Shown in pieces: positions 3,413 to 37,896 of a stretch of 46,186 nt of DNA. Under the pieces are notes generated by a model. It did no database searches. It was not told where the DNA came from and saw only the letters and a list, made by a program, of their open reading frames with translations. The position numbers and the translations under genes were made by a program. Source of the stretch: a virus; IMG/VR virus record IMGVR_UViG_3300019889_000003, positions 1-46,186 of that record; one strand, written 5' to 3'. Within the stretch, counting starts at the first letter, position 1. Every line of letters begins with the position of its first letter.

Positions 3413-4354
3413 ATGTCGAAAGAAAAAGCCGACATCTGGATGCCCCTGTACATAGGGGACTATCTATCGGCAACCACGCACCTCAGTGCTGAAGAGAGCG
3501 GTGGATACCTCCATCTCTTGATGCATGCATGGAAGAACGGATCTCTCCCGTCTGACATGGAAGGCCTGCGACGCATTGCACGAATTGATAAGGATGCTTG
3601 GAGCAATGCTTGGGCGATGCTACAGCCATTCTTCGACATGTCTTCAGGTGGTGCTCCAGTCCAAAAGAACCTAGAGCGCATTAGAAATGAATGGAACGAT
3701 AAAAAGGTTGCATCTACTGAAAAGGCTAGGGTTGCCGCAGAAGCTCGATGGAACAAGAATGCTCCAAGCAATGCTCCAAGCATTCCTCCAAGCAATGCTC
3801 AAGCAATGCCCCAGAGATGCCCTTCATCGTCACCTTCATCTATTGAAGAACAACAGCAAAAGCCTTCTCGCGGCAAGCGCGAGGTCGATCCTAGATTCTC
3901 TGAGTTCAGGGGTGCATGTGAATCCTATTACAAGTACAAGACCCTCCCGATGACGTGGGATGGTTCTGAGTCTAAGCAACTCTCGAGCCTGTTGACTGCT
4001 AACCCATCGCTATCGCTAGACAGGTTTCAGGACATCCTTCGCAATCGCCTGAAGTCAACAGTCAATCACGCCGAGCGCCCGCGCTCATGGCTGAGTAGGG
4101 CAACGGAGTACTTAGCGGGACCGCTCGACAAATACGGAAAACCATTGGAAATTGACGGAGGTAATCGTGGAACCCATCAGAGCAATCAAAGCCGGGGAGC
4201 TAATCGAGTTGAACAGCAGCTCGAGGAGCTTAGAAAGGCGGGTGTCTCCATCCCGCCAGGACGGGCTGAAGCTGGCCCTAAGCAAGATGTCCCTGTTGCG
4301 GGGAGAGGTGATGGATTCGATTCGCCTGGAGTCGTACTCGAAGGCGTTAGGTGA
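3413..4354 (+). CDS. DUF1376-type replication protein (YdaU-like)
   Basis: 313 aa from ATG 3413, with AGGAG six bases upstream. The N-terminal 100 residues (WMPLYIGDYLSATTHLSAEE, GGYLHLLMHAW) match the DUF1376 domain of phage replication initiators as I know it. A Ser/Pro/Gln-rich linker (about 120-165) follows, then a helical C-terminal domain. By family and position it probably starts phage DNA replication or recruits the host helicase. Its last 188 bases are overlapped in another frame by the next gene. Confidence 0.8.
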   Translation: MSKEKADIWMPLYIGDYLSATTHLSAEESGGYLHLLMHAWKNGSLPSDMEGLRRIARIDKDAWSNAWAMLQPFFDMSSGGAPVQKNLERIRNEWNDKKVASTEKARVAAEARWNKNAPSNAPSIPPSNAQAMPQRCPSSSPSSIEEQQQKPSRGKREVDPRFSEFRGACESYYKYKTLPMTWDGSESKQLSSLLTANPSLSLDRFQDILRNRLKSTVNHAERPRSWLSRATEYLAGPLDKYGKPLEIDGGNRGTHQSNQSRGANRVEQQLEELRKAGVSIPPGRAEAGPKQDVPVAGRGDGFDSPGVVLEGVR

Positions 4355-4622
4355 AGAGTTTGCGGAGGACTACGACACCCTGTATGTCCTGGACGGACTA
4401 GTCAGGTCCCGCCGCGGCGAGTACGAGACCAAGATTCCAGAGATGGGGGACCTTCTCGAGATGGTTAGGGATCGCAGGTCGGAACGGTTGCGGGCAATAC
4501 GTGAACGCAAGAAGCGCGATGAGCATGCGGCCTACCTGAAGGACGTTCGCGAGAACCCAGATAACTACGTGACCATGCACCAACTTCTTGAAGACATCGC
4601 AGCAAAGAAAGGAATGGCATGA
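4167..4622 (+). CDS. hypothetical replication-cluster protein
   Basis: 151 aa if started at GTG 4167, which has GGAGG with a 6-base spacer. This gives a 188-bp overlap with the upstream gene. ATG 4288 or 4311 would shorten the overlap, but their ribosome-binding sites are worse. The C-terminal half is highly charged and helical (RDRRSERLRAIRERKKRDEH). Position behind a DUF1376 protein suggests a helicase loader or accessory factor, but I see no Walker motif. Function unknown. Confidence 0.65.
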   Translation: MEPIRAIKAGELIELNSSSRSLERRVSPSRQDGLKLALSKMSLLRGEVMDSIRLESYSKALGEEFAEDYDTLYVLDGLVRSRRGEYETKIPEMGDLLEMVRDRRSERLRAIRERKKRDEHAAYLKDVRENPDNYVTMHQLLEDIAAKKGMA

Positions 4623-4903
4623 ACATCAAGTTTTCACGAGTGCGCAAGGAGGACGTACCGAGCGCTAAACGGTTTCAGCGGGGCAAGTATTCCAGGTTCT
4701 TCGAAGAGCTCATGGACATGGCGCCGGGGCTCACGGCATGCATCTCTGTCGACTCGAGAGGTGAAGGTCATCTGGCAACTCAGGCTTTGAACAAGATTGC
4801 GAAACAGGAAGGGCTGGAGCTTGGCTGGAGCCGGAACCGTGAAGCTACGGCGTTCTACTACTGGCTGGAGCGGCCGAAGGCTCAGATCAAGAGGATCGCA
4901 TGA
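4619..4903 (+). CDS. hypothetical protein
   Basis: 94 aa from ATG 4619 (ATGA overlap). A basic N-terminus (MNIKFSRVRKEDVPSAKRFQ) is followed by a compact mixed domain ending FYYWLERPKAQIKRIA. Family not recognised. Codon pattern and tight spacing support a real early gene. Confidence 0.7.
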   Translation: MNIKFSRVRKEDVPSAKRFQRGKYSRFFEELMDMAPGLTACISVDSRGEGHLATQALNKIAKQEGLELGWSRNREATAFYYWLERPKAQIKRIA

Positions 4904-13149: not shown

Positions 13150-15362
13150 GCACATCTCCAGTAACGTCTGAGGCCGAAGAGCAAGAGCCAGAAGAGGCCG
13201 AGGAAGGCTCTACGCTCGATAAGGACGTAGACCTCCAGCGCGAAATCCTGATGAAGATCAGCACCAAGAACCAGACCGGCAAGGTAAACCGGATGGCTGA
13301 GGTGCAGAATGCTCGTGATCAGAGACTCTATTTCCGTGGCATTCAGCAGTTCTATTGGTCAGAGGACAGGGAAGACGTAATCTTCGAGTCGGACGACGAC
13401 TCACCGTATGACCGTACGTTCAACGTGTTTCAGGGCTACGGCAAGATGTTCCAGGCTACATTCATGGGCGCCAAGCCTAAGGTTAGGGCTGAAGCGGATA
13501 ACCCATTTGATTCTGCAGCGATCCGCAACACGTCCAAGGCCAACACCTACGAGCGTGTCTATAGTAAGTTCAATGACACAGCAACACAGCAGTTAGAGGT
13601 TTCTCGCCTGTTCTGGACGGATGGCAGGATTGTTACCCGCACGTCGCAGCGCAACGGTAAAGAGATCACCGAGTTCTGGGGTGTGCTTGAGTCTCGCGTG
13701 CCGGTGAACGCGAAGGTAGACATTGAAGTTCCTCTCAAGCATTGCCCATTAATTGAGCTCGAAGACGAGTATCCGATTGTCCAGTTGAAAAAGGACTATC
13801 CCGATGCTCGCAAGAAGATCAACAGCGGCAACGGCGACAGCTATGACCGCAACGCACGGAATGCTGTAAAGCGGCAGGCTGGTAGCGACACAAGCATCTC
13901 AGTAACGAATGGTGAGGATGCTTACGGACTTGCCACGAAGACCTGGAGCTACATGCGGCCAGAGTTCTTTGAAGAGTTTCAGGAAGCTAGCCGCGTGCAG
14001 CTAGAAGAGGCTTTCCCAAAAGGGTTATGTGTCGTCCACAACGGGGACGTATACCTGGAAAGCTACGAAGTTGACGTAGATACATGCCTGGATGTGCTCC
14101 ATGCGCTCCCGGGTGATGGACAGAGCCGAGGCAGCATTGGACAGCCCATGATGGCGCTGCAGGATTCAGCCAACACTGGGCAGAACCTGATTGAAGAGAT
14201 GTTTGATCACGGTATCCCTACCACGTATTACGACGCGCGGACGGATATCGACGGACTGAACAAGCAGCGAGAGATGCCGGGCGCTAGCCGCAAGGCGCAA
14301 GGACTCGCCAGCCAACCACTTTCTGCAGCCTTCTTTCAGACTGCAATGGTTACCCCTCCCGCTTCGCTGATGGAGTATGTGGAGAACCTGAAGGGACCGC
14401 AATCGCAGTTTGTCACTGCCATGCAGCCAGCACTCAATGGTGCAGAGATGGCAGACCAGAAGACAGCCTCTGGTTATGCTCAGGCCCGCTCGATGGCTCT
14501 GGGGCAGATGGCTATTGTATGGAAGCCGTTCACGGCATGGTTTACGCGTGAGATGACCAGAGCGGTAAAGATGGCCTCGGCACGTCCTGACAACATCTCT
14601 ACGACGCTGCCGGCAGTTCGCAAGGGTGGCAAGCCGGAGACGGTACAGATTATGCCTGGCGAGTTGCAAGGGCTTTCATTTACCAACGAATCAGACGAGA
14701 ACTTCCCGCAGACGTGGACGGAGAAGTCAAACAAGTTCATGCAGCTGCTTCAGATGGGAGGAGACGTAGCCGACTGGGTTCTGCAAGAGGAGCCTGACAA
14801 CCTCTATCTGGCTAAGCAGTTCTTTGGCCTGGAAGAGCTTGTTATTCCCGGCGAAGATCTGCGCAACAACGTCCTGGCAGACATTGCGAGCATGGAGAAC
14901 GAGCAGGCTACACCTGATCCAAATCAGATGCCACAACAGCCATTGCCTGGCGTTGGACAGCCTCCGGTTCAGGTTCCTCTCATCTCCAGCGTGACGATCG
15001 ATACCGAATATCTCGAGGATAAGGACTTCGAGATCGGCTGGAAGACAGTAAAGCACTGGGTGCAGTCGCCAGCAGGTCAGGATGCCAAGACATCGAAGCC
15101 AGAATGGTTTGAGAACGTCCGCCTTTATGGTCTGCAGTACAAGCAGGCTATGCAGGCAGCGCAACAGGCAGCAGCAGCTTCCCAACAGCCTCCACCTGAG
15201 CCACCTAAAGGACCGGGCGAGACGATTGGATACAAAGATCTCCCAGTTGCAGGAAAGATTCAGCTTGCAGCTAAGGCTGGGATTCAGTTGACGCCAGAAG
15301 ATGTTCAGGCACAGACAGCACAGGACGCCGCAGCGAAAGCGGCTCCCATAGGAGTGCAGTAA
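13146..15362 (+). CDS. portal protein, P22 type
   Basis: 738 aa from GTG 13146. An acidic N-terminus is followed by a portal core (NARDQRLYFRGIQQFYW, DDSPYDRTFNVFQGYGKM, PKVRAEADNPFDS). A Gln/Ala/Pro-rich C-terminal region beyond about 620 could correspond to the P22 barrel. It forms the 12-subunit ring for DNA packaging and head-tail joining. Size, order (after terL, before scaffold) and the P22-like pattern support the call. The C-terminus lies against a small conserved gene at 15363. Confidence 0.85.
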   Translation: MSTSPVTSEAEEQEPEEAEEGSTLDKDVDLQREILMKISTKNQTGKVNRMAEVQNARDQRLYFRGIQQFYWSEDREDVIFESDDDSPYDRTFNVFQGYGKMFQATFMGAKPKVRAEADNPFDSAAIRNTSKANTYERVYSKFNDTATQQLEVSRLFWTDGRIVTRTSQRNGKEITEFWGVLESRVPVNAKVDIEVPLKHCPLIELEDEYPIVQLKKDYPDARKKINSGNGDSYDRNARNAVKRQAGSDTSISVTNGEDAYGLATKTWSYMRPEFFEEFQEASRVQLEEAFPKGLCVVHNGDVYLESYEVDVDTCLDVLHALPGDGQSRGSIGQPMMALQDSANTGQNLIEEMFDHGIPTTYYDARTDIDGLNKQREMPGASRKAQGLASQPLSAAFFQTAMVTPPASLMEYVENLKGPQSQFVTAMQPALNGAEMADQKTASGYAQARSMALGQMAIVWKPFTAWFTREMTRAVKMASARPDNISTTLPAVRKGGKPETVQIMPGELQGLSFTNESDENFPQTWTEKSNKFMQLLQMGGDVADWVLQEEPDNLYLAKQFFGLEELVIPGEDLRNNVLADIASMENEQATPDPNQMPQQPLPGVGQPPVQVPLISSVTIDTEYLEDKDFEIGWKTVKHWVQSPAGQDAKTSKPEWFENVRLYGLQYKQAMQAAQQAAAASQQPPPEPPKGPGETIGYKDLPVAGKIQLAAKAGIQLTPEDVQAQTAQDAAAKAAPIGVQ

Positions 15363-15656
15363 ATGAATGCAAGTATGGAAATGCCCAGGTACGTGTCTCA
15401 TAAAAAAGTATGGGCGCTACAGATAGCCTCGATTAACGAAATTAGCGTGATAGGGGAGAGCGAAGAGGGGATTAGTGGGCATACTGAGTTATTGCTAACC
15501 CTTGTCGATAATCGCTACGCTCCTATCCAAAAAGATTGCTCAGATCGTCCTCAGCCCTCTGCTGGATGGTATTACGTCGTATATCCGGACGGATACTTCT
15601 CCTTCTCCCCCGCAGATGCATTTGAAGGCGGATATACGCTGGTTGGAGGTCGATAG
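15363..15656 (+). CDS. conserved small phage protein
   Basis: 97 aa from ATG 15363; ATG 15375 is possible. MPRYVSHKKVWALQIASI and the ending GWYYVVYPDGYFSFSPADAFEGGYT match a small protein family that is widespread in phages and has no known function in my memory. It lies between portal and scaffold. Confidence 0.75.
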   Translation: MNASMEMPRYVSHKKVWALQIASINEISVIGESEEGISGHTELLLTLVDNRYAPIQKDCSDRPQPSAGWYYVVYPDGYFSFSPADAFEGGYTLVGGR

Positions 15657-16927
15657 TGTTTGAAGAGACGGTAGTAGACACTCCGGCAGTCGATGAGACC
15701 CCGGTAGATGATTCCTCAGTTGACGAAGCGCCTATTGAAGACGCTCCAGAGGCCGAAGACGCGTCCGATGAATCCGATGGTATAGACGACGCGGAGTCCG
15801 AGGAAGAGGCCCCAGAGGAAGAGGCAGCCGCCGAGGAAGTCCCTGCTGATGGCCGCAAGATGCCCGATGCGCTCAAGAAGGCTATTGCTGGCCTGAAGGC
15901 TACTAGCCCAGAGGTTGCCAAGCAGATCAAAGGGCTCTATTACGCCAACGAGGAGTTCCAGAAAGCCTTCCCGACGCCTGCTGATGCTATTACTGCCAAG
16001 ACGATCATTGAAGAGATAGGCGGACCTGAAGGTGTTCAGGAAATTCAGGCAGAGCGCGAAGAGTGGCGACAGATTGATACCGACTTTGCTGAAGGCAAGA
16101 AGGAGTTCGTTACTTCTATAGCCGAGGGGAACCCTGAAGGCTTCCTTAGGACCGCACCACATGTAATCAACGAATTTGCGCAGCGTGCACCAGATCAATA
16201 TCAGTATTACGCGAACAATGTGGCGCTGAATACGCTGAATAATGCTGGCCTTTCGATCGACAACCTTGCTTCTGCCTATCATCGGTACGCTGACAACCCA
16301 CAAGCTCAGGCAATCATTGCTGAGATCCATAACTCTCTTGTTGGCCTGAAGGAAAAGGCGACTCAGTTCGAGCAGAAGCGCATGGATCCACGCGAAGAGC
16401 AGTTGAAACAGCGCGAGACGGCGTTTGAACAGTCCCGTAGAGCTGACTTTGAAGGCCGCGTAGCTAATGATGCAGAGACTTACCTGTCAAGCAAGATGCA
16501 GCCCGAGATTGACCGCGTTGTTGGTGGTCGCAAGGTGGATCCTGAAGCCATGAAGGGCTATCAGTCGATGGTCAAGGCTGAAGTTGAGAAGCGTTTAGGC
16601 GCTATTCCGGGATTCGCTGACAAGTTGGAAGCTCACTACCGCACCGGCGACTCCAAGAAGTCTCTGGATTACATTCAGGCGCAATACAACCGCATTCTTC
16701 CGGTAGCGGCTAAGGTAATTGAGCCTTTCCTGCGAAATATTGCGCCGGCAAAGGCTGCTCCTGCGGCTAAGACTGCTGCGACAGGTAAGGCCGGCGCTCC
16801 TGGTGAAATCACACTCAAGGAAATGCCTGATCATTCCCAGATTGACTTCAACCAGTGCACGGTGGCTGATGTAATGTCCGGTCATTGCGTACTGAAGAAC
16901 GGCAAGAAAGCTTCAGGCTGGATTTAA
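15656..16927 (+). CDS. scaffolding protein (inferred)
   Basis: 423 aa from GTG 15656, overlapping the previous stop by one base. The first 65 residues are extremely acidic. The rest is helical with a coiled coil (LKEKATQFEQKRMDPREEQLKQRETAFEQ) and an Ala/Lys-rich region before a short C-terminal tail. This composition and the place before the capsid gene fit a scaffolding protein that guides capsid assembly and then leaves. Confidence 0.75.
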   Translation: MFEETVVDTPAVDETPVDDSSVDEAPIEDAPEAEDASDESDGIDDAESEEEAPEEEAAAEEVPADGRKMPDALKKAIAGLKATSPEVAKQIKGLYYANEEFQKAFPTPADAITAKTIIEEIGGPEGVQEIQAEREEWRQIDTDFAEGKKEFVTSIAEGNPEGFLRTAPHVINEFAQRAPDQYQYYANNVALNTLNNAGLSIDNLASAYHRYADNPQAQAIIAEIHNSLVGLKEKATQFEQKRMDPREEQLKQRETAFEQSRRADFEGRVANDAETYLSSKMQPEIDRVVGGRKVDPEAMKGYQSMVKAEVEKRLGAIPGFADKLEAHYRTGDSKKSLDYIQAQYNRILPVAAKVIEPFLRNIAPAKAAPAAKTAATGKAGAPGEITLKEMPDHSQIDFNQCTVADVMSGHCVLKNGKKASGWI

Positions 16928-25441: not shown

Positions 25442-26953
25442 ATGGCAGATCCGAATCCTCTCATTGCAAATGCGACTCTGCTTAAGCGCCTTGCCGTTCC
25501 TGATATTTTTGCGGCACAGATGCCACAGCAGGTTGCCGCTGTAACTCCTACTCCGATGGCTCCTCCTCCCGTCATCCCCGCGTCTCCGGCTCTGAGTGTG
25601 CTCAAGACTCCAGATCCGGCAGTGCAGAACACAACCAACAGCCTTCTTGGTCATCAGAAACGGCTAGGGGAACTGCAGACAGAAGGGTCTGGTATTTCTC
25701 AGATCAAGAATCCCTTCCTGCGCGGATTGGCTAGGACTGGCGAAGTTGCTGAATCTATCATTGCCCCGGGTGCGGCTGCGCTAACTCCGGGAACAGGGAT
25801 GCATAACCAGTACCTGCAGGGAATCGAGCAGCGTGGCATCAATAATGCTCTGCAGAATCAACAGGCAATAGCGCAGGAAGGTCAGACTGAAGCGAATACC
25901 AACTACCTCAACCAGCGTCCGCAGATCGAGCAGTCAAAGATTGATCAGAAGGAGACTGCGGTTCGGGAAAGGGTCAACCAGGCGGCGGCGGCACATGGTC
26001 AAAAGGTCGTGTATGACGAGAATGGCATTCCTTCCTTCCAGGACGATTACGAGTCGCAGGCCTTCCATGATCGCCAGGCCCTTTCCGCCATGCACCAAGC
26101 TACGGCTGACAAGAACAAGATCGTAGCCGAGATTCAGCAGAATCATTACATCCCCGGAACTCCTGAATACGTAGAAGCGCAGCGCAAGATGGCACAGGTA
26201 GACCAGCGCCTTAATGTTTCAATGTCCAGCCTCGGGCTCAGAGCGCAAGGCCTAGACCTCCGCAGGCAGAACACGAACGCGGCGCTCTATGGCACCGACA
26301 ATGCAGGCAACGCTCTACCTGGATCCGCTCAGATAGCCGGCGACGATGGCCAGATGACTACTGTAGGCGCCAAGTTCGCTCCGCACGCCATCACTCAGCA
26401 GAAGAACGTCGGCTCGTTCAATGACCTCTCTGGCTCGGTAGGACATACCCGCAACGCGCTTACTCAGTTCTTCAACGAAGGCGGCTCGCTCTCTGATCCT
26501 CGGATCGTAGCTGCGATGTCTGACCCGCACTCCACAATTGGCAAGGTCATCAACGGCAAGATTGTAACGAACGGACTTTCTCCTGCTGCCGTAACGGCTA
26601 TCAACTCCGTGCGGCAGCTTCATGAGCAGGCTGGCATTCTCCGCTCTACTACCGGAGGTACAGCTTCAGAGGCGGGGGCTCAGCGCATTCTGGATGTCGT
26701 ACCTTCTGCCGGAGACAACAACGCCATGGCACTCAGCAAGCTTGACCAGCAGGACGAAGTTCTCAAGCGTCTTGCGCCTGGCATGACTGGCGTATCTGGT
26801 GGCGTAAAGGTAAAGCACCAAGGCAATGCATTGCCCTCAGGCGGAGGGAACAAATACAAGCAAACAGCTAGTGGCCCCGGTGGTCACAAAATCGGCTCTA
26901 ACGATAACGGCGCTACTTGGTTCGACACGCAGACCGGAAAGGAAATCAAGTAA
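25442..26953 (+). CDS. internal virion/ejection-type protein
   Basis: 503 aa from ATG 25442. Pro-rich N-terminal part, then long helical stretches (YLNQRPQIEQSKIDQKETAVRERVNQAAAAHGQ) and a Gly-rich C-terminus. No catalytic motif seen. Likely the second ejection protein. Its stop overlaps the next start (TAATG). Confidence 0.6.
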   Translation: MADPNPLIANATLLKRLAVPDIFAAQMPQQVAAVTPTPMAPPPVIPASPALSVLKTPDPAVQNTTNSLLGHQKRLGELQTEGSGISQIKNPFLRGLARTGEVAESIIAPGAAALTPGTGMHNQYLQGIEQRGINNALQNQQAIAQEGQTEANTNYLNQRPQIEQSKIDQKETAVRERVNQAAAAHGQKVVYDENGIPSFQDDYESQAFHDRQALSAMHQATADKNKIVAEIQQNHYIPGTPEYVEAQRKMAQVDQRLNVSMSSLGLRAQGLDLRRQNTNAALYGTDNAGNALPGSAQIAGDDGQMTTVGAKFAPHAITQQKNVGSFNDLSGSVGHTRNALTQFFNEGGSLSDPRIVAAMSDPHSTIGKVINGKIVTNGLSPAAVTAINSVRQLHEQAGILRSTTGGTASEAGAQRILDVVPSAGDNNAMALSKLDQQDEVLKRLAPGMTGVSGGVKVKHQGNALPSGGGNKYKQTASGPGGHKIGSNDNGATWFDTQTGKEIK

Positions 26954-28227
26954 TGCCGCTACCCAAGGGTTATACCGTCGATCAGCCCGCGCAAGCTCCT
27001 AAGCTTCCGGCTGGCTATAGTCTCGATGCACCGTCTAGCCCTGATCGTCCTGCCGGTCTTCCTGCTGGAGTAGACCTTCCGGGTGTTGCTGCTCATCCTG
27101 CGGCCAACCTGAAGGAGCCAGGCCCAACCTTCGGCGGAAAGGTGCTCAATCGCTTAGGAGACAACGCCAAGGGGCTTGTTAATCCCATTCTCAATCCCAG
27201 CTCTATTCTTACAGGGGCAGGATGGTCTGATCCAGGTAAAGCTGGCGACTTGATCTCTGACATCCGAGATAACCCAAACAGCACCGGCATTGCGAATGCT
27301 ATTGGAGATACCATTACGGCGGGAGCCATGGGCGGGGCAATGCATGCCGCTCCTAAGCTCGCTGTTCCCCTTGGCGAGAACATGAAGGCCGCAGGCGGAA
27401 AGTTGATAGACCGCACGGCTGGCCTACTGAAGAAGGATGTGGCTCGTGGTGCTGAACCGGGACGGGCATATCTCGAGGGAGGAGGAGGACCAGTTCTTAA
27501 TCTTAGAGGTCTTGGCGAGTCGGCCGGCAGGATAAAGTCTGATACCGGCGCCAAGCTGGGGGATGCCTATAGCAACTCAACGGCTATTATCCCCGCAAGC
27601 GACGTAATGAATGCCGTGCAAGAGCCCATCACTAAACTGAGAAACATCCAAAATGCTCCGGGTGGTATCGGTTCTCCGGCAGCGTTGAATGATTTCGAAA
27701 GCAACCTGACTCAGCCTGTATATAACGCTTCTAACCGAGGAGGATTCACGCCTTCCGAATTGTTCTCGGAGATGAAACAACCCATATCCCAAAACACCCG
27801 CTGGAATGATCCAACAATGTACGACCTGAACAAGGTTAGGCAGGAGACAGTGGGGCGGTTGGGTGGATTACTTACAGACGCCGTTCCCGAAACGTCGCGG
27901 CTAAACAAGATTTATCAGGGTACAAGCAAGCTTGAAGGAAGAGCGGCTGAAAGGGCTGCAACAGGACAATCCCCTCTATCTGGAATCGCCAGAAACTTGG
28001 GAGAAATAGGAATAGGGGGAGTTTTAGGTGCTGCTACCCATAATCCATTCATTGCCGCAGCCCCCCTTATCTTGGACTCCGTTCCGGTAAAGACTGGTGC
28101 CGCAAAGGCTCTATTCGAAGGAGGAAAGGTCGTCCCCGGTATCGGAAGAGGCATTGGGAGAATCGCTCCACTTGCCAGTTCCCGTATAGGAGTTTCCTCC
28201 TCCAATGACCGCAGCAAGCCAAAGTAA
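26953..28227 (+). CDS. internal virion/ejection-type protein with membrane-active C-terminus
   Basis: 424 aa from ATG 26953. A Pro-rich start (KGYTVDQPAQAPKLPAGYSLDAP) leads into Gly/Ala-rich helices (IANAIGDTITAGAMGGAMHAA) and a hydrophobic stretch near residue 360 (EIGIGGVLGAATHNPFIAAAPLIL). This could insert in the host membrane during DNA ejection. Third of the presumed ejection set. The last 117 bases overlap an antisense membrane gene. Confidence 0.6.
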   Translation: MPLPKGYTVDQPAQAPKLPAGYSLDAPSSPDRPAGLPAGVDLPGVAAHPAANLKEPGPTFGGKVLNRLGDNAKGLVNPILNPSSILTGAGWSDPGKAGDLISDIRDNPNSTGIANAIGDTITAGAMGGAMHAAPKLAVPLGENMKAAGGKLIDRTAGLLKKDVARGAEPGRAYLEGGGGPVLNLRGLGESAGRIKSDTGAKLGDAYSNSTAIIPASDVMNAVQEPITKLRNIQNAPGGIGSPAALNDFESNLTQPVYNASNRGGFTPSELFSEMKQPISQNTRWNDPTMYDLNKVRQETVGRLGGLLTDAVPETSRLNKIYQGTSKLEGRAAERAATGQSPLSGIARNLGEIGIGGVLGAATHNPFIAAAPLILDSVPVKTGAAKALFEGGKVVPGIGRGIGRIAPLASSRIGVSSSNDRSKPK

Positions 28228-28380: not shown

Positions 28381-29160
28381 TTATTGCAATTGCTGAAGTT
28401 TTCCCTCAACCAGGGGCTGCATAACTGCATAACCTGATGCATCTGGATGCACTCCATCGGTAGTAAGTCCATCGGTATAGCGTGAGCTGATGGGATCAAA
28501 AAGGGCTGCATGGTAGTCAATCAGGGTAACGCCTTCCTTAATCGCAAACGCCTTCAGCCAAGTATTGAGTGTGTTGATGCGCTCAAGTCGTCCCTGCGAC
28601 TGATCCCCGGCAGCAAAACCGCAGGCAGGATCTGAAGCACAGCCCCAAGGCGGAATTGTTCCAATGATTACCTTGATGTTGTTTCGCTTTGCAGTCTCGA
28701 CCATATAGGTCATGTTTGCGCAGGTATTCGCTGAATCAATAGTGATTGGCGGTGTAGTTGGCGTGGCATCATCGGGTCCGGGTGTTGGACATAGAGTCCA
28801 GCTAGCTTGAAGGTCATTCGTTCCCGCGATGATGTGCACTTCGTCGGGATGCAGATCGACAACGTCAGCCTGAAAGCGCATAGCAATAGCCTGCGAGCCT
28901 TGGCCACTGATTCCTTTGTCTGTCCAGTTGGTATGCGCCTGAAATGCTGCTTGATTGCGCCAAAGGTCAGTCACGGAATCGCCGATGAATACTACTTCGG
29001 TGTTAGCTGTGGGCGGCGGTGTTGATGGCGGCGGTGTGGTGTTGGATGGTGGCGCGGAGAAGTTCGACTTACCTGGTCCCGAACCGCATCCGACGAGAGA
29101 AAGGCAGAGAATTGCTGCAAGAAAAAGACGCATAGTTGAGATAAACTTGACGGTGTACAT
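28381..29160 (-). CDS. SGNH-hydrolase lipoprotein (likely moron)
   Basis: 259 aa from ATG 29160, with AGGAGGG upstream. A lipoprotein signal ends in LSLVGC (Cys 25). A Pro-rich linker follows, then an SGNH esterase domain: FIGDSV (Ser 62), a Gly block near 83, AGTND (Asn 115) and DGVHPDASGY (Asp 235, His 238). All catalytic blocks are present. It is probably a membrane-bound esterase or deacetylase acting on surface glycans. It opposes the late operon and has its own promoter, so it may be expressed in lysogens and alter the surface. Confidence 0.8.
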   Translation of the reverse strand: MYTVKFISTMRLFLAAILCLSLVGCGSGPGKSNFSAPPSNTTPPPSTPPPTANTEVVFIGDSVTDLWRNQAAFQAHTNWTDKGISGQGSQAIAMRFQADVVDLHPDEVHIIAGTNDLQASWTLCPTPGPDDATPTTPPITIDSANTCANMTYMVETAKRNNIKVIIGTIPPWGCASDPACGFAAGDQSQGRLERINTLNTWLKAFAIKEGVTLIDYHAALFDPISSRYTDGLTTDGVHPDASGYAVMQPLVEGKLQQLQ

Positions 29161-29221
29161 GGGTGACCCTCCTAGGTCTTTATGGGAGTGAGCCTTGCCG
29201 GGCTCCTCCCAACCATGTACG

Positions 29222-29250
29222 AATCTAGGTTGACCTAACTTACCCGTCAA
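29222..29250 (-). promoter_or_regulatory. promoter for the SGNH lipoprotein (inferred)
   Basis: On the minus strand TTGACG (29250-29245), a 17-bp spacer and TAGATT (29227-29222). The transcript leader would carry a hairpin (GAGCC/GGCTC), and an inverted repeat GTACATGG/CCATGTAC (29155-29162, 29213-29220) includes the start codon. Confidence 0.6.
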
Positions 29251-29311
29251 CAATTATTTAGTACAACTTTCGGGTAACTAGTAAGTCCTTTAAATTTAAT
29301 TACTTAAACAT

Positions 29312-29334
29312 CCCTCGCTCCTGCGGGGGTTTTT
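29312..29334 (+). terminator. terminator-like hairpin just before the first fiber gene
   Basis: CCCTCGC (29312-29318) pairs with GCGGGGG (29323-29329) with one G-U pair, followed by TTTTT. It points rightward and lies only 18 bp before the fiber start, so it may end the ejection-gene transcript partly or be an attenuator. Confidence 0.65.
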
Positions 29335-29352
29335 CATTTAAGGAGCCTCCGC

Positions 29353-32076
29353 TTGAAGAAGACACTTCTACTGCTCATGGCGGTAATAACCTCGTGCGCC
29401 TATGGGCAGGGGGTATTTTTCAATAGCTACAATGTCACGTCTGCGAAGAACGTTTCCGTTGGCGCCCAAGCTCCGGTTCTTACTCTCCCCTTTAGTACCG
29501 TTTCGGTGTGTGTGTATGACGGGAATCTAACTACTCCCTGCACAACTACGGTTCCTATCTATACCAACCAAGATCTAGCTCCGGGTCACTTAATTCCTCA
29601 GCCGTTGCAGTCTGACAATCAGGGGCGATTTCAGTTCTGGATTGCCGCGGGCATCTACAAGTTCAGCGTCAATACTGCTGTAGGTACTCCGGTAGGAACC
29701 TATGCCCTCTCCCTTGACTCTCCCGTAGGCCCACAAGGTCCGGGCGGCATTGGTTGCGGTACAGGTAACTGCATTGTGCAGGCTCCCGCAGGCGCACAGA
29801 ACATCCAGCAGCCGGCAGGCACGACCTTAGGGGTAAGCAGCATCAATGGCTCCAATGTACCCGGCTTCGGATTTGCTTCAATTCAGGCCGCGGTAACTTC
29901 TGCGCAAGGTGCAGGGGGGGAAGTGGATGTACCTGGAACGCTAGCGGCAGGAGAGATGGCCTATCCCGCGGCCAACATATCGCTGAGCGGAATTTCCACC
30001 TCAAGCTATAAGAAGTTTACCGGCATCCCTGTTGACGATCACCGGCCCCTGAACCATGACGTCTCTCTTGCCCAGATGATTAGCCTTCCGGCCACGGATG
30101 GTGCAGCAGCGGGGGGAGACACGATCGGAGCGCAGCGGTGCGTACAGACGGAACATTGCGTCGTTGCTGTCGTCGGTAACTCCATCCATGAGAACGTTGC
30201 GGCGGTGGCCCCGAATGACGGCTATACCGCCGCCCTGTTTGCAGCCATGCAGCGCAAGTTCCCCGATACACAGTTCACCTTTATCAATCTCTCCATCGGC
30301 GGGTCTTCTGTACAGAACTTTATAGACGCCACCTATATCTGCAATACCACCCCAGCGGCAAATCACTTCTTCCGCTCAACTCCCGGCAACTGGTATCTCC
30401 AGCAGACCTTCAATAGCGGTTTCCTTACCGGCCCCCCCTACTTCCAATGGACCAACGGTTGCACGCCGGGCAACAACTGGATGCAGGAATTAACGACGAC
30501 CCAGCCGGATATCGTCGTGCTGGGATTCGTAGAGAACGAGTACTCCTCGGGGACGCAGGGTTATATTCCCGCACTTCAGAGTGCCATCAACTTCGTCCGC
30601 GCCATCAAGATCATTCCTCCGACCGTCATCCTTACCACCGATATGCCACCGAATCCGAATTGGGATTCCACCCTTGGCCTTCAAGACCCCAACATCTTTG
30701 AAGGATTGAACGAAGCCACTCGGGGCATCGCAGCCCAGAACAACCTGCTGCTGGCGGACGCGGACAGGTATTACAACGTTCTGGCCTATGGGATTGATCC
30801 CGGCAGGCGTCATTTTCAGGTGGAGCATTCTTTCCTGAACTACCACGCAAGCGGATGGGCGGTGGCCGTGGGAGCGAATGCGTCCGACTTCCCGGCCCTT
30901 TCCGGGAGCGGACTTGCTTCCACGATCACCTACCCCACCCCCGCCGGAACCAATGGAGGAATGGTGCAGAGAACACGGAATGCTACTGATTTCGTTCTCA
31001 GCGCCAGCTTCGGTCAAACCCAGGCGGGAGTCAGTGTCCCATCGATCTGGTATCGCATGACATCCGCAGCATTGGGAGGGTTGCAGTTCGGCTACAAGGT
31101 GCAGACCTCCAGCGCTATTTCAGGCTCTAACACCATTTGGTCAATCACCCTGTATTACTCCAACGGCGTCCCGCAAACTGTAATCACTTCCGGAGTATGC
31201 ACGATACCCACCGCAGTTCCTTTGGTCCTCACCGTCCAGGTGAGCGGCGCACATCATGACGTGTGGTGCAACACGACCAATCACGTCATCAGCGCCTATG
31301 ACTATTTTCAACTAGCGGGAGGGCAGGTCGCAGTGGGGATTCAGTCTGGTCCCGGCAACATCAGCAACGAATACATCTACTATGGCAATCCTACGCAATA
31401 CTTCACCCCAATCGTAGGCATTCAATCCATGATGGGGACGCAGGTTCCGCCGACCTATAACGCAGCGGGAGATTTCGATACCAATCCCTTTTCTTATGGC
31501 GGAGATGGCTATCACCACCCCAGCCCGGTTGGATTTGATTCCTACTACATGGCAGCTTTCAAGCCGGTCCTTGACTATCTGGCTCAGCAGATGACAGTCC
31601 ACTCCTCTGTCAGTGTTGCCCATACTGGATTCCCCGGTAATAACTATGGCGGACTTGAGGATAGCGGCGACGGCAGGGTGGATGTGGTAAACGGTCCGCA
31701 GGGTGGGCGAGTCGTCAACAACGCCAACAACTTCATCCGCGAAAGATGGAACAATGGAAACTCCGACCCGCACATCTTCGCCGTTCCCGTACAGCTCACC
31801 TCAATCACTAATGGCGTAGGAATGCAGGTAGCAGGACTTGGTTCCAGTTGCCACCCTGCGGCGAACTCCTTCTGCACTGACACCATTACCTTGCCCGTCG
31901 CAGAGCCCAACACCAGTTACTTCGTTCTGGGCTGCTCTGTTCGGGATCTTTCAGGCGGCGCCAGCACGATCGGAGGGACCTCCTTCCGAACTACTACCAC
32001 CTTCCAAGTACTTGAGGTCAACCCTACGGCTACAGCTGCGGCTGGTGGATTCGTTGAATGCCTAGTAACTCACTAA
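29353..32076 (+). CDS. SGNH-hydrolase tail fiber/spike with signal peptide
   Basis: 907 aa from TTG 29353, with AAGGAG upstream. It has a typical Sec signal (MKKTLLLLMAVITSCAYGQG). Residues 40-125 form a beta-rich domain, with a short collagen-like VGPQGPGG after it. An SGNH domain spans about 265-730: VVGNSI (GNS instead of GDS), IGGSS, a VENE block near 391 and GYHHP near 718. The C-terminus is beta-rich. Size and place suggest a receptor-binding spike that de-esterifies surface glycan. The signal peptide is unexpected for a virion protein. Confidence 0.7.
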   Translation: MKKTLLLLMAVITSCAYGQGVFFNSYNVTSAKNVSVGAQAPVLTLPFSTVSVCVYDGNLTTPCTTTVPIYTNQDLAPGHLIPQPLQSDNQGRFQFWIAAGIYKFSVNTAVGTPVGTYALSLDSPVGPQGPGGIGCGTGNCIVQAPAGAQNIQQPAGTTLGVSSINGSNVPGFGFASIQAAVTSAQGAGGEVDVPGTLAAGEMAYPAANISLSGISTSSYKKFTGIPVDDHRPLNHDVSLAQMISLPATDGAAAGGDTIGAQRCVQTEHCVVAVVGNSIHENVAAVAPNDGYTAALFAAMQRKFPDTQFTFINLSIGGSSVQNFIDATYICNTTPAANHFFRSTPGNWYLQQTFNSGFLTGPPYFQWTNGCTPGNNWMQELTTTQPDIVVLGFVENEYSSGTQGYIPALQSAINFVRAIKIIPPTVILTTDMPPNPNWDSTLGLQDPNIFEGLNEATRGIAAQNNLLLADADRYYNVLAYGIDPGRRHFQVEHSFLNYHASGWAVAVGANASDFPALSGSGLASTITYPTPAGTNGGMVQRTRNATDFVLSASFGQTQAGVSVPSIWYRMTSAALGGLQFGYKVQTSSAISGSNTIWSITLYYSNGVPQTVITSGVCTIPTAVPLVLTVQVSGAHHDVWCNTTNHVISAYDYFQLAGGQVAVGIQSGPGNISNEYIYYGNPTQYFTPIVGIQSMMGTQVPPTYNAAGDFDTNPFSYGGDGYHHPSPVGFDSYYMAAFKPVLDYLAQQMTVHSSVSVAHTGFPGNNYGGLEDSGDGRVDVVNGPQGGRVVNNANNFIRERWNNGNSDPHIFAVPVQLTSITNGVGMQVAGLGSSCHPAANSFCTDTITLPVAEPNTSYFVLGCSVRDLSGGASTIGGTSFRTTTTFQVLEVNPTATAAAGGFVECLVTH

Positions 32077-32100
32077 GCCAAACAAATTAAAGGAGAAACA

Positions 32101-34296
32101 ATGAAACTGCTTATTGCCTTGCTCTGCTTGGCTAGCATCAGCGCGTCCGCGAGTACCACCGCTGTCACGGCGACTTTGACAGATGGTGATGGGTCCGTCT
32201 GGTCTAACTGCACATGGTCTGCAACCCTGAATAGCACCACTCCGCCTACCGTTGGAAAGGCCCCCGTACCCGACTCGCAACTTCTCGCCTCGGGTTCCTG
32301 CTCTACCTCGGGAGTTCTGAGTGCGACGATGCTCAACACTGCCAGTGTCGACCAAGCCGGCGCGACTTGGACCTTCACGATTCAGCCTAATGCTTCGGTA
32401 TCGCCCTCGGTCATCACTGGAGTAACTACGGCTACGGCCAATTTGACCACCGTCCTTTCTGCGGGCCTTGCTGAACCCCGCTTTCAATCCGGCCCTAATT
32501 CCTTTGGCTATGCCGATATTGAAGTGGGTTCTTCTGCTATCGGATCGACCTATTTCAACACCGGCACGGTCTGCAGTGCTACAGGTGGTACTCGCCAATT
32601 TAGCCTGGCTGGATGGCAGTGCGGCGGCGGCAGTGGAAGTGGCGCGAGCAACCCTGTCACCCATGACTTGATTGCGGAATATCCCTTCAATGATGGAACT
32701 GGTACGACCATCACCGATGTCAGCGGAAACGGCAGGAACGCGACCTTCGCTGGTGGTGCAAACTCCCCAACATGGCTGACCTACGGCGTCTCATTCCAGA
32801 ATTCAGGGATCATCAGTGGCACGGTTACCCCTCAGTTTGCAACCACGCCATTCTCTGACTTCAAAACCATGATCATAGGCGTCTGCAATCCCACAATTGG
32901 GCAGACTACCGGAATTTCAACAGGCGGGCAGATTGGCAATACGCCGATTCTGTTTGGGCCCGGCGGCGGAACGGGAGGGGTGAATTTCTTCACTGCTACC
33001 AATCCCTCGATTGCCGTTACTTCCTTCAAGCCGGTCGTCTATCGCATCAGCAACGGCCAGATTACCGCCGATGCTGGATTCTATGACGGCTGCCACGTAT
33101 ACGGCTATGCGCTCGACGCAAGCACCACCGACACCGTAATGGTAGACGGTCAGGCCATCGCAAACTATAAGACCCGCTTTGGCACCGGTCCAGGGAGCGC
33201 GATCATAGGTGGGACTTATAACTTTGGAGGCCCAGTAGGTGGTCCCGCGCTTCGTGCCGTTATTACCTACGCCATTCCCTATAACGTGGAGCTCACAGTT
33301 CCCGAGATGCAGCAGGTTTCTGAATATGTCAGGCAAAAGCTGGCCGCTCGTGGATCCTTCCCGCGCTATCCAATATTCACAAATGCGGTGACTCCTCAGC
33401 TTGTTTATGTGGGAGATTCTCTCACCGCCAGCCTGCAGGGTTCAGCGCAGTGGACCACGACGCTTGCCTTGAACTACTCGCCCACGATTACCAACTGGGG
33501 CATTGGATCGATGCAGACCAATGACATGTGCTACAACTCCTACACTCGCTGGCTGGGCAATATCGTTCCTGGAAATACGATTGTCCATGTTTGGGGAGGG
33601 ATCAACGATACAGCGCAGTCTGGAGTAACAGACGCACTCATCATGCAGTATCTGGGGGTCTGCGCTGCCAACATCAAGAAGTATGGCGGTATTCCGGTTC
33701 TCGCAACGATGATCGCCAACGCTACCCTGGACGCTCGGAAGAATTCGCTTGGCATACTTGAGCGCGCCAACTACAAGCAGGCGGGATTCGATTATCTGAT
33801 GGACTATGCCAACTTCCCGCCATTGGGAGCCGATGGTGCGGCCAACAACAACCTGTGCTTCCAGGGTGACAGGACTCACCTCGTAGGCCCGGGTGCTGGT
33901 ACGTGCGGACCCATTCAGGGCGCATCCCTAAGCGGGTATGGTTCGGTCGCGGCAATGAATTCGGCCCTGACCAACTACATTAAATCCCAATATTCTGTCG
34001 GCTCTCCACGCGTCCTGACTGCCACTACCGGACTTACATGGGCAGATCGTGCCGTAGAAATGGGAACGCTGGCGGCCACCTCTGCTATCACCCTCCCGGA
34101 TTGCAGCGGCCTGACGGACTCTTCGATTTCTATCAACAACCCACAGGCAGCGCAGGTGGTCACGGTTGTAGGTTTCTCTGCCTCGCAGCCCATCAATGGC
34201 CTCACCACTGCCATCACAATCGCCAATAACGCCAGTGTGACTCCTATCGTTGTCGCCAATCCGGGAGCTGTTTCGGGCTGCCACTGGTCGATGTAA
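32101..34296 (+). CDS. LamG plus SGNH-hydrolase fiber protein with signal peptide
   Basis: 731 aa from ATG 32101, with AAAGGAG upstream. A Sec signal (MKLLIALLCLASISASA), a beta-rich N-terminal domain, then a concanavalin/LamG-like domain (IAEYPFNDGTGTTITDVSGN, about 195-425). An SGNH domain follows, with VGDSLT near 438, WGIGS, GGINDT near 500 and GDRTHLVG near 589. The C-terminus is beta-rich. Probably a second glycan-binding and de-esterifying fiber. It differs from the first in architecture, so it is not a simple duplicate. Confidence 0.7.
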   Translation: MKLLIALLCLASISASASTTAVTATLTDGDGSVWSNCTWSATLNSTTPPTVGKAPVPDSQLLASGSCSTSGVLSATMLNTASVDQAGATWTFTIQPNASVSPSVITGVTTATANLTTVLSAGLAEPRFQSGPNSFGYADIEVGSSAIGSTYFNTGTVCSATGGTRQFSLAGWQCGGGSGSGASNPVTHDLIAEYPFNDGTGTTITDVSGNGRNATFAGGANSPTWLTYGVSFQNSGIISGTVTPQFATTPFSDFKTMIIGVCNPTIGQTTGISTGGQIGNTPILFGPGGGTGGVNFFTATNPSIAVTSFKPVVYRISNGQITADAGFYDGCHVYGYALDASTTDTVMVDGQAIANYKTRFGTGPGSAIIGGTYNFGGPVGGPALRAVITYAIPYNVELTVPEMQQVSEYVRQKLAARGSFPRYPIFTNAVTPQLVYVGDSLTASLQGSAQWTTTLALNYSPTITNWGIGSMQTNDMCYNSYTRWLGNIVPGNTIVHVWGGINDTAQSGVTDALIMQYLGVCAANIKKYGGIPVLATMIANATLDARKNSLGILERANYKQAGFDYLMDYANFPPLGADGAANNNLCFQGDRTHLVGPGAGTCGPIQGASLSGYGSVAAMNSALTNYIKSQYSVGSPRVLTATTGLTWADRAVEMGTLAATSAITLPDCSGLTDSSISINNPQAAQVVTVVGFSASQPINGLTTAITIANNASVTPIVVANPGAVSGCHWSM

Positions 34297-34361: not shown

Positions 34362-35486
34362 TTGTCTACGTTATCTGCCGAGAAAGTGCAGCAGGTTAAG
34401 GATCTACTCGCCGAAGGAAAGCTAACCAGAGACAGGATTGCCTTTGTTACAGGTCTGGGCGCCGGTTCCGTCAGCAAGATCAAACAGGGGCTGATTACCC
34501 CGATCAGAGCCAGGGAAGAAGTTGAGCCCTTGGCCCACGATTCAATTCGCAGGCTTTTGAGAAAGCAGCCCATGTCTGAGGCAGAGATTGCCGATGCCCT
34601 GGATTGCAGCCCGAAGCGCGTGCGTGAGGCCATCGACCAGATGAAGGCACGCGGAGCCATGCTGCTGGAGCTCCACGGCAAGTACGACCTCAAAGACAGT
34701 ATTCATATTGAGCCGGGCGAATCTGTGATCAAGGCCACAACCGGCGCGCGCAGATTCGGCGTAACGGGAGATAACCATCTCTGCAATAAGCATTCCCGGC
34801 TCGATGTTCTAAACGCCGCTTACGACCATTTTGAGCGTGAAGGCATCACGGAAGTCTTCAATACTGGAAACTGGATCGACGGCGAAGCTCGCTTCAACAA
34901 GACCGAACTGGTCACAGCGCCAGGCATGGATAACCAGATCAACTATATGATCGACAACTTCCCCCAGCGGAAGGGCATAACCACGCACTACATTGCTGGC
35001 GACGATCACGAAGGATGGTACCAGCAGCGCGAAGGAATCGAGATCGGCCGATACCTCCAACTCAGGGCCGAAGAGCAGGGGCGCCACGATCTGAAGTATC
35101 TGGGCTATGGAGAGGCTGACATAAAGCTCCAGTACGGCTCAGGATCAGCCTGCATGCGCGTGGTTCACCCAGGCGGGGGATCTTCCTACGCCATCAGCTA
35201 CACCGATCAGAAGCGCGTGGAGAGCTACCAGGGCGGCGAGAAGCCACAGATAGAGCTGGCGGGGCATTACCATAAGTTCAATTACGGCTATCCCCGCGAG
35301 GTCCATACCGTTCAGACCGGCTGTACCTGTGACCAGACCATGTTCATGCGGAAGAAGAAACTGCAGGCCCATGTCGGCTATCTGATCATCAACCTGAACC
35401 AGAGCGAGCAGGGAATTGTCACCCGCTTCAACGTGGAATGGATGCCTTGGTATGATCGCGGGTTTTATGAGAAGCGGTTCGCCTGA
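34362..35486 (+). CDS. metallophosphoesterase with N-terminal helix-turn-helix
   Basis: 374 aa from TTG 34362, with GAGGAG seven bases upstream. Residues 1-110 have helix-turn-helix-like repeats (KLTRDRIAFVTGLGAGSVSKIK, MSEAEIADALDCSPKRVREAI). From about 135 a calcineurin-like domain has GDNH, GNW near 168, GDDHE near 213 and GHYH near 301. It could be a DNA-binding nuclease or phosphatase (Mre11/SbcD-like fold). Its substrate is unknown. The next gene overlaps its stop. Confidence 0.8.
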   Translation: MSTLSAEKVQQVKDLLAEGKLTRDRIAFVTGLGAGSVSKIKQGLITPIRAREEVEPLAHDSIRRLLRKQPMSEAEIADALDCSPKRVREAIDQMKARGAMLLELHGKYDLKDSIHIEPGESVIKATTGARRFGVTGDNHLCNKHSRLDVLNAAYDHFEREGITEVFNTGNWIDGEARFNKTELVTAPGMDNQINYMIDNFPQRKGITTHYIAGDDHEGWYQQREGIEIGRYLQLRAEEQGRHDLKYLGYGEADIKLQYGSGSACMRVVHPGGGSSYAISYTDQKRVESYQGGEKPQIELAGHYHKFNYGYPREVHTVQTGCTCDQTMFMRKKKLQAHVGYLIINLNQSEQGIVTRFNVEWMPWYDRGFYEKRFA

Positions 35487-35917
35487 TGCTGCGCGTCATT
35501 GTCGACCGGAGGGCAGAACAAGCCTTCCGGCGTAGAGCGATCGCCAAATACCCAAACGAGATGATGGAGGCCCTCTGGGGGCGATATGTAGGGGATGAGG
35601 TCCACATATTTGCGTTCATGGGTGTGCCCGCTAAATACGCCAGCCCAACACAAGTCCAATACGAGGAAGAAGACCTTGACAGCCACGAAGACGAGGCCAA
35701 GGAATACAACCTCGAATTGCTCGGCACAATCCACACCCACCCAAACCACCTAGACGACATCTTCAGCGAAGGCGACACCCGCGAAGTGCAGGAATCGCAG
35801 GATGCGGTTATGGGTATCTGCGTGATTACAAAAGAAATGAGACGAGACAGATGCATCTCCAAAACGAAGATCACGTACTGGCCGGCACCCCGGCCACTGA
35901 GGGTTCAGTACCTATAA
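35486..35917 (+). CDS. JAMM/JAB-domain metalloprotease
   Basis: 143 aa from ATG 35486. The JAMM motif is complete: HTHPNHLDDIFSEGD (HxHP, seven residues, SxxD) at about 82-96, with an upstream Glu (NEMMEALWG) near residue 26. JAMM proteins remove ubiquitin-like tags or cut peptides; in phages related domains occur in tail proteins. No ubiquitin-like or E1/E2 gene is visible here, so the substrate is unknown. Confidence 0.8.
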   Translation: MLRVIVDRRAEQAFRRRAIAKYPNEMMEALWGRYVGDEVHIFAFMGVPAKYASPTQVQYEEEDLDSHEDEAKEYNLELLGTIHTHPNHLDDIFSEGDTREVQESQDAVMGICVITKEMRRDRCISKTKITYWPAPRPLRVQYL

Positions 35918-36771: not shown

Positions 36772-37896
36772 TCAAGCTTGTTTCTTGTCCTTCGTGATCA
36801 TCTCCACAACTGCCGCGTTGTGTCCCTTCAGGCCCTTCATCTTCCTGCCGCCATACTGACTGGTGGTCCTGATGTCAGAGTGACGCATCAGGCGCTGCTG
36901 GACCTCCATCGGCAACTCGAGATCTCGCATCATGGCCCGGTAGGTGTGGCGGAAGCTGTGCCAGCCTAGACGGGGAAGCCCTGCAAGCTTGCCCGCTGGA
37001 CGCAGGTGGCGAACCTGTAGCGAGTCGCGATGGTAGGGCCTGCTGGTGACCGGGCTCCCGAATACCCATCCCTCGATCACAACCTCTTCTTCGCGCCATG
37101 CCCTCAGGGCTGCCACCAGGCTGTCATGCAATGGCAGGTCATCGTTAGAGGCCTCCGTCTTGGTCGCATCCGCATGCATGCCCACCACAGAGCGGTTGAT
37201 GGTCAAAGTGCCCTTGTCCAGGTCGATATCCTCCCAACGCAGGCCAAGGATCTCCGAGGCGCGCAGGCCGAGATACATCGCCAACTGAACCATCATGCCG
37301 ACGTTGGGCGGGACTATGGTGAGGATCTGATGGTACTGCTCGACTGAGACAATCGTCTGCTGGCGCGTCGGGAGCGGCCTTCCCTTGACCCTCAGGAGGC
37401 TGATGGGGTTCCGCTGGAGGTCTAGGCCTCCCCAGCGCATGATGCTCTCAAACAGGGTGTGGAGCTGAGCCTTGACGTGCTGGCGCGTCTTCTTGGACAA
37501 CTGGCCGCCCCTACGCTTCTCCAGCCCGTTCAGCCACATCTCGACCTCAACCAGATCGCGCACCATCGTTGCCGCCGCAACCTTCCCCCAGCGCGTGCTG
37601 ATGTGCGCCAGGTTCGACAGGCAGGATCGCCGCGTGCTCTGGCGGGTTGGCATGTCCTCCAGCTTGTAGCGCTCGATAGCCTCCGCAATATTGATCGATC
37701 GGCTGAGAGCAGCTACCTTGGCGCGGTGCTTGTCAGCTTCCTTCTCGGCGATAGCCTTGGTAGGGAACTGCTTCATGTCCCCGAGAATGATCGAACGGCG
37801 CAGGCCGCCCTCCATGAATCGGAAGGTCCACACGTCAGGACCATTGGAACGCTCTTTGGGAACTACACTGCCACGCTGGTACGTGAGCCTCTTCAT
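36772..37896 (-). CDS. int: tyrosine integrase
   Basis: 374 aa. It has an N-terminal arm-binding part and a central core-binding domain. The C-terminal catalytic domain has the full tyrosine-recombinase set: Arg 212 (LGLRASEI), Lys 246 (TKTEAS), His 313 and Arg 316 (HSFRH), His 339 (RHSDIRTT) and Tyr 348 (SQYGG). It joins attP to the host tRNA site. Last gene of the leftward operon, about 110 bp from attP and overlapping the excisionase-like gene. Confidence 0.93.
   Translation of the reverse strand: MKRLTYQRGSVVPKERSNGPDVWTFRFMEGGLRRSIILGDMKQFPTKAIAEKEADKHRAKVAALSRSINIAEAIERYKLEDMPTRQSTRRSCLSNLAHISTRWGKVAAATMVRDLVEVEMWLNGLEKRRGGQLSKKTRQHVKAQLHTLFESIMRWGGLDLQRNPISLLRVKGRPLPTRQQTIVSVEQYHQILTIVPPNVGMMVQLAMYLGLRASEILGLRWEDIDLDKGTLTINRSVVGMHADATKTEASNDDLPLHDSLVAALRAWREEEVVIEGWVFGSPVTSRPYHRDSLQVRHLRPAGKLAGLPRLGWHSFRHTYRAMMRDLELPMEVQQRLMRHSDIRTTSQYGGRKMKGLKGHNAAVVEMITKDKKQA

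Follow-up and report, generated by a model that had tools for sequence, protein, structure and literature searches.

Tailspike-like SGNH proteins with predicted Sec signal peptides in a soil phage and its relatives

The complete IMG/VR virus record IMGVR_UViG_3300019889_000003 (46,186 bases, analysed over its full length and referred to as the window) probably represents a temperate, short-tailed soil phage with an Acidobacteriota-like host, and its genes include a terminase, a major head protein, an integrase and an Erf-type recombinase. Within positions 28381-34296, three genes encode SGNH hydrolases, namely the lipoprotein P0001 on the minus strand and the fibre-like proteins P0002 and P0003 on the plus strand. 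Judging from their sequences, the conclusion that P0002 and P0003 are built for export is supported. We propose that both are tailspikes that leave the cytoplasm via Sec, form disulfides as they fold and attach to virions during or after lysis, a proposal for which we see the balance as even. That such signal-bearing proteins are tailspikes or derived from them is supported for the relatives and likely here. The original prediction of three SGNH open reading frames (ORFs) with export signals in 6 kb was borne out, as all three are present and their signals lie behind good ribosome-binding sites. The predicted split into one lipobox and two plain Sec-type signals was also recovered (LVGC in P0001, plain signals in P0002 and P0003), although the sequence ITSC inside the P0002 signal is lipobox-like as well.

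Signal peptides were called with a cleavage-site matrix at a strict cut of 6 and additionally with a lower, relaxed rule. When left out of the matrix, 27 of 28 E. coli signal peptides scored at least 6, and none of 17 ORFs of at least 400 amino acids (aa) from T7 and lambda was called. A positive n-region, a hydrophobic h-region and small residues at -3/-1 are present in P0003 (MKLLIALLCLASISASA, predicted cleavage before S), where the signal is strong, and in P0002 (MKKTLLLLMAVITSCAYG, predicted cleavage before Q) at the relaxed cut. A signal-peptide-like call arose in 0.45% of shuffles of the P0002 sequence and in 1.0% of those of P0003, so both signals are unlikely to be products of chance. 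Wrong start codons were rejected too, given that Shine-Dalgarno (SD) sequences fit the signal starts in the window and in relatives; in the latter, an SD with at least four matches was found at 13 of 19 signal starts, while an SD-backed alternative near the mature end occurred in two of 19. Even with the TTG start and the modest signal score of P0002, it is thus very improbable that chance or misplaced starts account for the signals and that the true proteins begin downstream without one.

The two fibre-like genes lie on the late strand with a gap of 24 bp, right after two putative internal-virion genes, which is the tailspike site of short-tailed phages. In Xanthomonas phage PBR31 and Pseudoalteromonas phage H6/1, the tailspike gene comes after those for internal or ejection proteins, and the H6/1 tailspike includes pfam13472 (GDSL family). 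A scan with a gp14-like protein yielded 55 further loci where fibre genes come after internal-virion genes, and homologues of the window's pair precede signal-bearing fibre cassettes in the loci L013 (50% and 34% identity) and L018 (35%). In most loci, the first fibre gene encodes a domain with the motif AGTTTPxxTYTD (phrog_26190), and in about 20 distinct soil-phage loci, metagenomic ones that are not independent lineages, the first fibre combines a signal peptide with a head-binding-like domain. A profile built from signal-bearing sequences alone matched the PDB entries 7eeq_A ("Tailspike head-binding domain", E 1.3e-9) and 9vyg ("Tail spike protein", 1.3e-8). Signal-less relatives from PBR31, Shewanella X14, Vibrio 1.211.A, Rhodoferax P26218 and H6/1 start at the head-binding domain, whereas in signal-bearing forms the domain starts right past the predicted cleavage site, with the motif at residue 45-60 versus 27-29 in signal-less ones. 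Most relatives of this domain are signal-less, including the cultured proteobacterial phages checked, and a scan with the anchor domain gave 10 loci with and 70 without a signal among the 80 best. In a tree of the anchor domain, the distribution of signal-bearing and signal-less forms needs 5-6 changes in the best trees and 12-26 after shuffling, but a single change is all that well-supported branches enforce. On a tentative reading, an ordinary head-binding tailspike would have acquired a signal peptide.

The N-terminal domain of P0002 matched the signal-bearing anchor profile A9 in hhalign (probability 93.5, pairwise E 2.3e-7) and, weakly, a head-binding domain in PDB (E 0.45). Its two homologues in L013 (40-45% identity) both possess signal peptides; they belong to two adjacent fibre-like genes with P0002's N-terminal domain that are followed by a third gene without a clear signal. 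Integrases 87% identical to that of the window adjoin signal-bearing fibre genes in both L013 and the IMG/VR phage L003, and in L003 these neighbours are homologues of P0002 and P0003. Homology begins only at residue 138 of P0002 (residues 138-815 are 63-67% identical to L003 4687-6939) and at residue 176 of P0003, so the N-termini are unrelated, and yet both L003 homologues have clear signal peptides. Further relatives of P0003 were found in L083, L024 and as gp342 of Tunturi_5. In the fibre locus of L024, an SGNH lipoprotein on the minus strand accompanies a fibre with a signal peptide and a P0003-related LamG-SGNH protein that likewise has one. In Tunturi_2, a podovirus of Tunturiibacter (Acidobacteriota), signal peptides were called on gp12, gp13 (annotated as a tail fibre), gp14 (a pectin lyase), gp16 and gp17, and the N-terminal domain of gp12 is another distant relative of the anchor domain (hhalign 76.7). 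Tunturi_5 carries signal peptides on gp337, gp338, gp341 and gp342.

Some of these loci show further arrangements. L003 encodes at 3914-4690 a stand-alone tail anchor stub (N-terminus of phrog_1640) without a signal peptide, immediately ahead of its two exported SGNH proteins; this may be a fibre that has been divided into an anchor made in the cytoplasm and heads that are exported. In Tunturi_5 gp342 (L002 11875-15435), two consecutive LamG-SGNH units are joined in a single exported polypeptide. Fibres that differ elsewhere (L004 gp13, L017 8393-10360, L018 6699-10853 and L019 5667-10172) have in common a module of some 50 residues (GFPITLGSTSI...VNGVTLN...FLNQAGGYTTP) with 70-88% identity, which points to module exchange.

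The composition of the mature proteins also points to export. Cysteine makes up 1.93% of mature signal-bearing proteins compared to 0.44% of other virion genes at the same 35 loci (p 1.5e-25), and the cysteine count is even in 48 of 55 signal-bearing but only 46 of 105 control virion proteins. When homologues were merged into clusters, 37 were mostly even and three mostly odd, versus 32 and 46 among controls. Signal-bearing proteins sampled by anchor domain only contain 1.85% cysteine (8/10 even), signal-less ones 0.84% (21/43 even), and cysteines inside the anchor domain itself occur in 27 of 29 signal-bearing versus five of 76 signal-less forms. In the window, P0002 and P0003 have 14 and 12 cysteines, while the head protein has one, the portal-like protein three and the two internal proteins none. 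From general protein biology, we infer that the even counts are due to disulfides. Moreover, in 61 of 92 proteins the residue at +1 of the called site is glutamine, an amino acid that makes up 3.5% of mature parts. This preference resembles the Q-rule described for signal peptidase I substrates in Bacteroidetes (PMC5837995), a signature that is seen here also in phages of Acidobacteriota. Taken together, recurrent signals on non-homologous N-termini, enriched paired cysteines and glutamine after the cleavage site make the predicted export of the fibres well supported.

P0001 has a firm SGNH assignment, P0003 a good one and P0002 a weak one, although blocks I, II, III and V (Ser, Gly, Asn, Asp-x-x-His) are readable in all three. 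P0001 matched Lipase_GDSL_2 in Pfam (E 3.6e-21, above the curated cut-off) and the GDSL lipase 3p94 in PDB (E 3.5e-26). The P0003 family profile A4 matches PDB 9kr0 at E 2.1e-12 (residues 442-626), while the Pfam hit of P0003 stays below the cut-off (E 8e-4); its homologues from L024 and Tunturi_5 matched Laminin_G_3 at E 2.6e-8 and 1.8e-8. P0002 likewise remains below the Pfam cut-off (E 0.0028; homologue E 3.3e-5) and its family profile has a single PDB hit (6hfz, E 0.084). Block I of P0002 has GNS in place of GDS, and near residues 540-690 its domain seems to be broken by an insert rich in strands, with tentative boundaries. The SGNH regions of P0002 and P0003 gave no mutual alignment in a profile comparison.

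Table 1. Features of the fibre locus and its surroundings, in positions of the window
Feature	Position	Strand	Basis or remark
Two putative internal-virion genes (503 and 436 aa)	25442..28227	+	Directly upstream of fibre locus; no Cys
P0001, SGNH/GDSL lipoprotein, probable moron	28381..29160	-	Lipobox LVGC; lipidated Cys codon about 29086-29088; start ATG at 29160 preceded by SD AGGAGG
Promoter-like site upstream of P0001	29222..29250	-	TTGACG-17-TAGATT; weak, region's count of such sites not above chance
Terminator-like hairpin between P0001 and P0002	29312..29329	+	Region's count of such sites not above chance
P0002, exported fibre/tailspike-like SGNH protein (predicted), 907 aa	29353..32076	+	14 Cys in mature part; start TTG at 29353 with SD AAGGAG
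P0002 signal peptide, residues 1-18	29353..29406	+	Scorer and shuffling; predicted cleavage between AYG and Q
P0002 N-terminal domain, distant relative of tailspike head-binding domain	29410..29715	+	hhalign to signal-bearing anchor profile A9
P0002 putative SGNH domain (VVGNSIH, LSIGGS, GFVENE, DGYHHP)	30160..31580	+	Motif positions; Pfam E 0.0028
P0003, exported fibre/tailspike-like LamG-SGNH protein (predicted), 731 aa	32101..34296	+	12 Cys in mature part; start ATG at 32101 with SD AAAGGAG
P0003 signal peptide, residues 1-17	32101..32151	+	Score 14.6; predicted cleavage between SASA and S
P0003 LamG-like region	32659..33330	+	Alignment with L024 and Tunturi_5 homologues
P0003 SGNH domain (GDSLT, WGIGS, GGIND, DRTH)	33400..33930	+	Profile A4 versus PDB 9kr0
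Tyrosine integrase	36772..37896	-	phrog_1 E 8.1e-51

Tailed phages assemble in the cytoplasm according to textbook knowledge. P0002 and P0003 would be receptor-binding fibres made with cleavable Sec signals, and a supported sequence of events is that they would cross into the periplasm, lose the signal to signal peptidase I and fold there with disulfide bonds. Because heads and tails form in the cytoplasm, they might then acquire the mature spikes, in the periplasm or outside, only once the membrane is breached at lysis. On the virion, the SGNH domains would strip esters, most likely acetyl groups, from the surface polysaccharide during adsorption. Of the options raised in the original prediction, the best fit is assembly outside the cytoplasm, given that in related signal-bearing fibres the head-binding domain is still present right behind the signal; the retention of this domain argues for joining virions, a step that we only infer. 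More generally, some tailed phages may possess a second assembly compartment, with Sec-exported tailspikes that fold with disulfides in the periplasm and attach only during or after lysis, which we put forward tentatively, as a possibility just short of even.

Several points weigh against exported tailspikes that join virions. The signal scorer is home-made, with its matrix derived from the 28 E. coli signal peptides, and P0002 with a score of 3.4 passes the relaxed rule only. The relationship of the P0002 N-terminal domain to head-binding domains appears distant, in P0003 no docking domain was recognised, and AlphaFold models of both proteins were unusable (mean pLDDT, the predicted local distance difference test, of 30.5 for P0002 and 33.2 for P0003). 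Tunturi_3 and Tunturi_4, which infect the same host genus, have no signal-bearing fibres in the parts read. The signal-less anchor stub of L003 implies that the exported SGNH proteins there need not be anchored directly. Virion proteomics for these proteins was not found in the literature searched, and their presence on virions and their joining are predicted.

The main rival reading, which we regard as unlikely, holds that the exported proteins descend from tailspikes but are not parts of the virion and act as esterases and depolymerases, either free or held at the surface. They might clear surface polysaccharide before lysis, help in progeny release, block re-adsorption or change the surface of lysogens. 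Secreted enzymes would be in keeping with the signal peptides, the disulfide-type cysteines, the LamG and SGNH domains and the neighbouring SGNH lipoprotein; PBR31 has, as a separate protein, a signal-bearing SGNH esterase that was connected with lysis by its authors (PMC10975493), and the anchor stub retained in L003 fits this reading too. However, a free enzyme would not need a conserved head-binding domain, yet most signal-bearing first fibres keep one. Furthermore, the fibre locus of the window showed no recognisable tailspike candidate without a signal, so that free enzymes would leave the phage without a receptor-binding protein.

Two other readings were considered, both of them improbable to a similar degree. 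The N-terminal hydrophobic stretch could be an uncleaved membrane tether or assembly element on fibres that stay cytoplasmic and enter virions unprocessed, in line with the general cytoplasmic production of tailed-phage fibres and with a study of phage proteins linked to diversity-generating retroelements (DGRs), where the absence of signal peptides was taken as support for phage origin (PMC6199706). The enrichment of paired cysteines in mature parts, the glutamine at +1 of predicted sites and the fact that a normally N-terminal domain begins exactly past the cleavage site speak against such a tether. On the other hand, the proteins could be bacterial secreted enzymes captured as morons, unrelated to tailspikes and located in the fibre locus by chance; both SGNH and LamG domains are widespread among secreted proteins of bacteria, and P0001 resembles such a capture. 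Nonetheless, in many phages this locus is occupied by signal-bearing proteins that have tailspike head-binding domains and fibre repeat modules common to several phages, and P0002 and P0003 lie close together on the late strand.

P0001 would be a separate lipoprotein esterase that edits the surface glycan of the infected cell or the lysogen. Since it lies on the opposite strand and behind a terminator-like site, it is probably a moron separate from the fibre genes, and a dedicated surface-modification system of three genes, as had been suggested, was not substantiated. Still, the pairing of a lipoprotein with an SGNH fibre was seen again in one other phage, L024, where a minus-strand lipoprotein 54% identical to P0001 is flanked by two signal-bearing fibre genes. 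The lipobox rule [LVI][ASTVI][GAS]C fits both proteins (LVGC in P0001, LTAC in the L024 homologue). Several phages carry a minus-strand gene for an exported protein, with a lipoprotein signal or a signal peptide, beside or within the fibre locus, resembling a recurrent moron site (L003 3431-3847, L084 4433-4921, L024 about 15346-16080 and window 28381-29160, all on the minus strand).

Elsewhere in the window, the tyrosine integrase indicates that the phage is temperate. Scans of genome contigs with the integrase and with the gp14-like protein, in which prophages were sought for host assignment, found no relatives, and an NCBIfam search gave no matches. Downstream of P0003, a gene at 35486-35917 (plus strand) encodes a protein with a Prok-JAB (JAMM-type peptidase) domain (Pfam PF14464, E 4.2e-11), directly preceded by a helix-turn-helix protein (34362-35486) whose C-terminal part looks metallophosphoesterase-like by eye.

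Known podovirus tailspikes (7EEQ, 9VYG, phrog_26190; PBR31 gp34, Shewanella X14 and H6/1 gp20 with GDSL) share with the proteins described here the locus after internal or ejection genes and enzymatic bodies including SGNH/GDSL, and with the signal-bearing fibres of related phages the N-terminal anchor domain. The cultured ones checked start at the domain and have no signal, whereas those of the soil phages have an additional Sec signal and paired cysteines. SGNH or deacetylase domains on a fibre or tailspike are likewise known from Acinetobacter phage Aristophanes and Pectobacterium phages PP99 and Possum; these reports deal with virion tail proteins that deacetylate surface polysaccharide, and in the parts read no export signals were found described for them. 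PBR31 gp40 is a small exported phage SGNH esterase like P0001, for which a role in lysis was proposed and, in the text consulted, no lipobox is mentioned (PMC10975493), while P0001 is encoded as a lipoprotein next to the fibre genes, on the other strand. Phages of Porphyromonas gingivalis encode signal-peptide proteins in which predicted cleavage exposes glutamine according to the Q-rule, as here, but these were presented as proteins of unknown function with a possible part in outer-membrane modification and not as tailspikes (PMC10367356).

A description of exported tailspikes was not found in the full-text literature searched, which leaves many subscription papers and preprints outside. The paper on Tunturi 2 and 5 (PMC11924767), in whose genomes we see signal-bearing fibre genes including the P0003 relative gp342 of Tunturi_5, mentions neither signal peptides nor virion mass spectrometry in its text. 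These two cultured phages make the idea of export directly testable. If the tailspikes of these soil phages are exported, virions would be finished outside the cytoplasm, or else widespread "tail fibres" would really be secreted enzymes. Either outcome would change the annotation of fibre genes and our understanding of how Acidobacteriota are infected.

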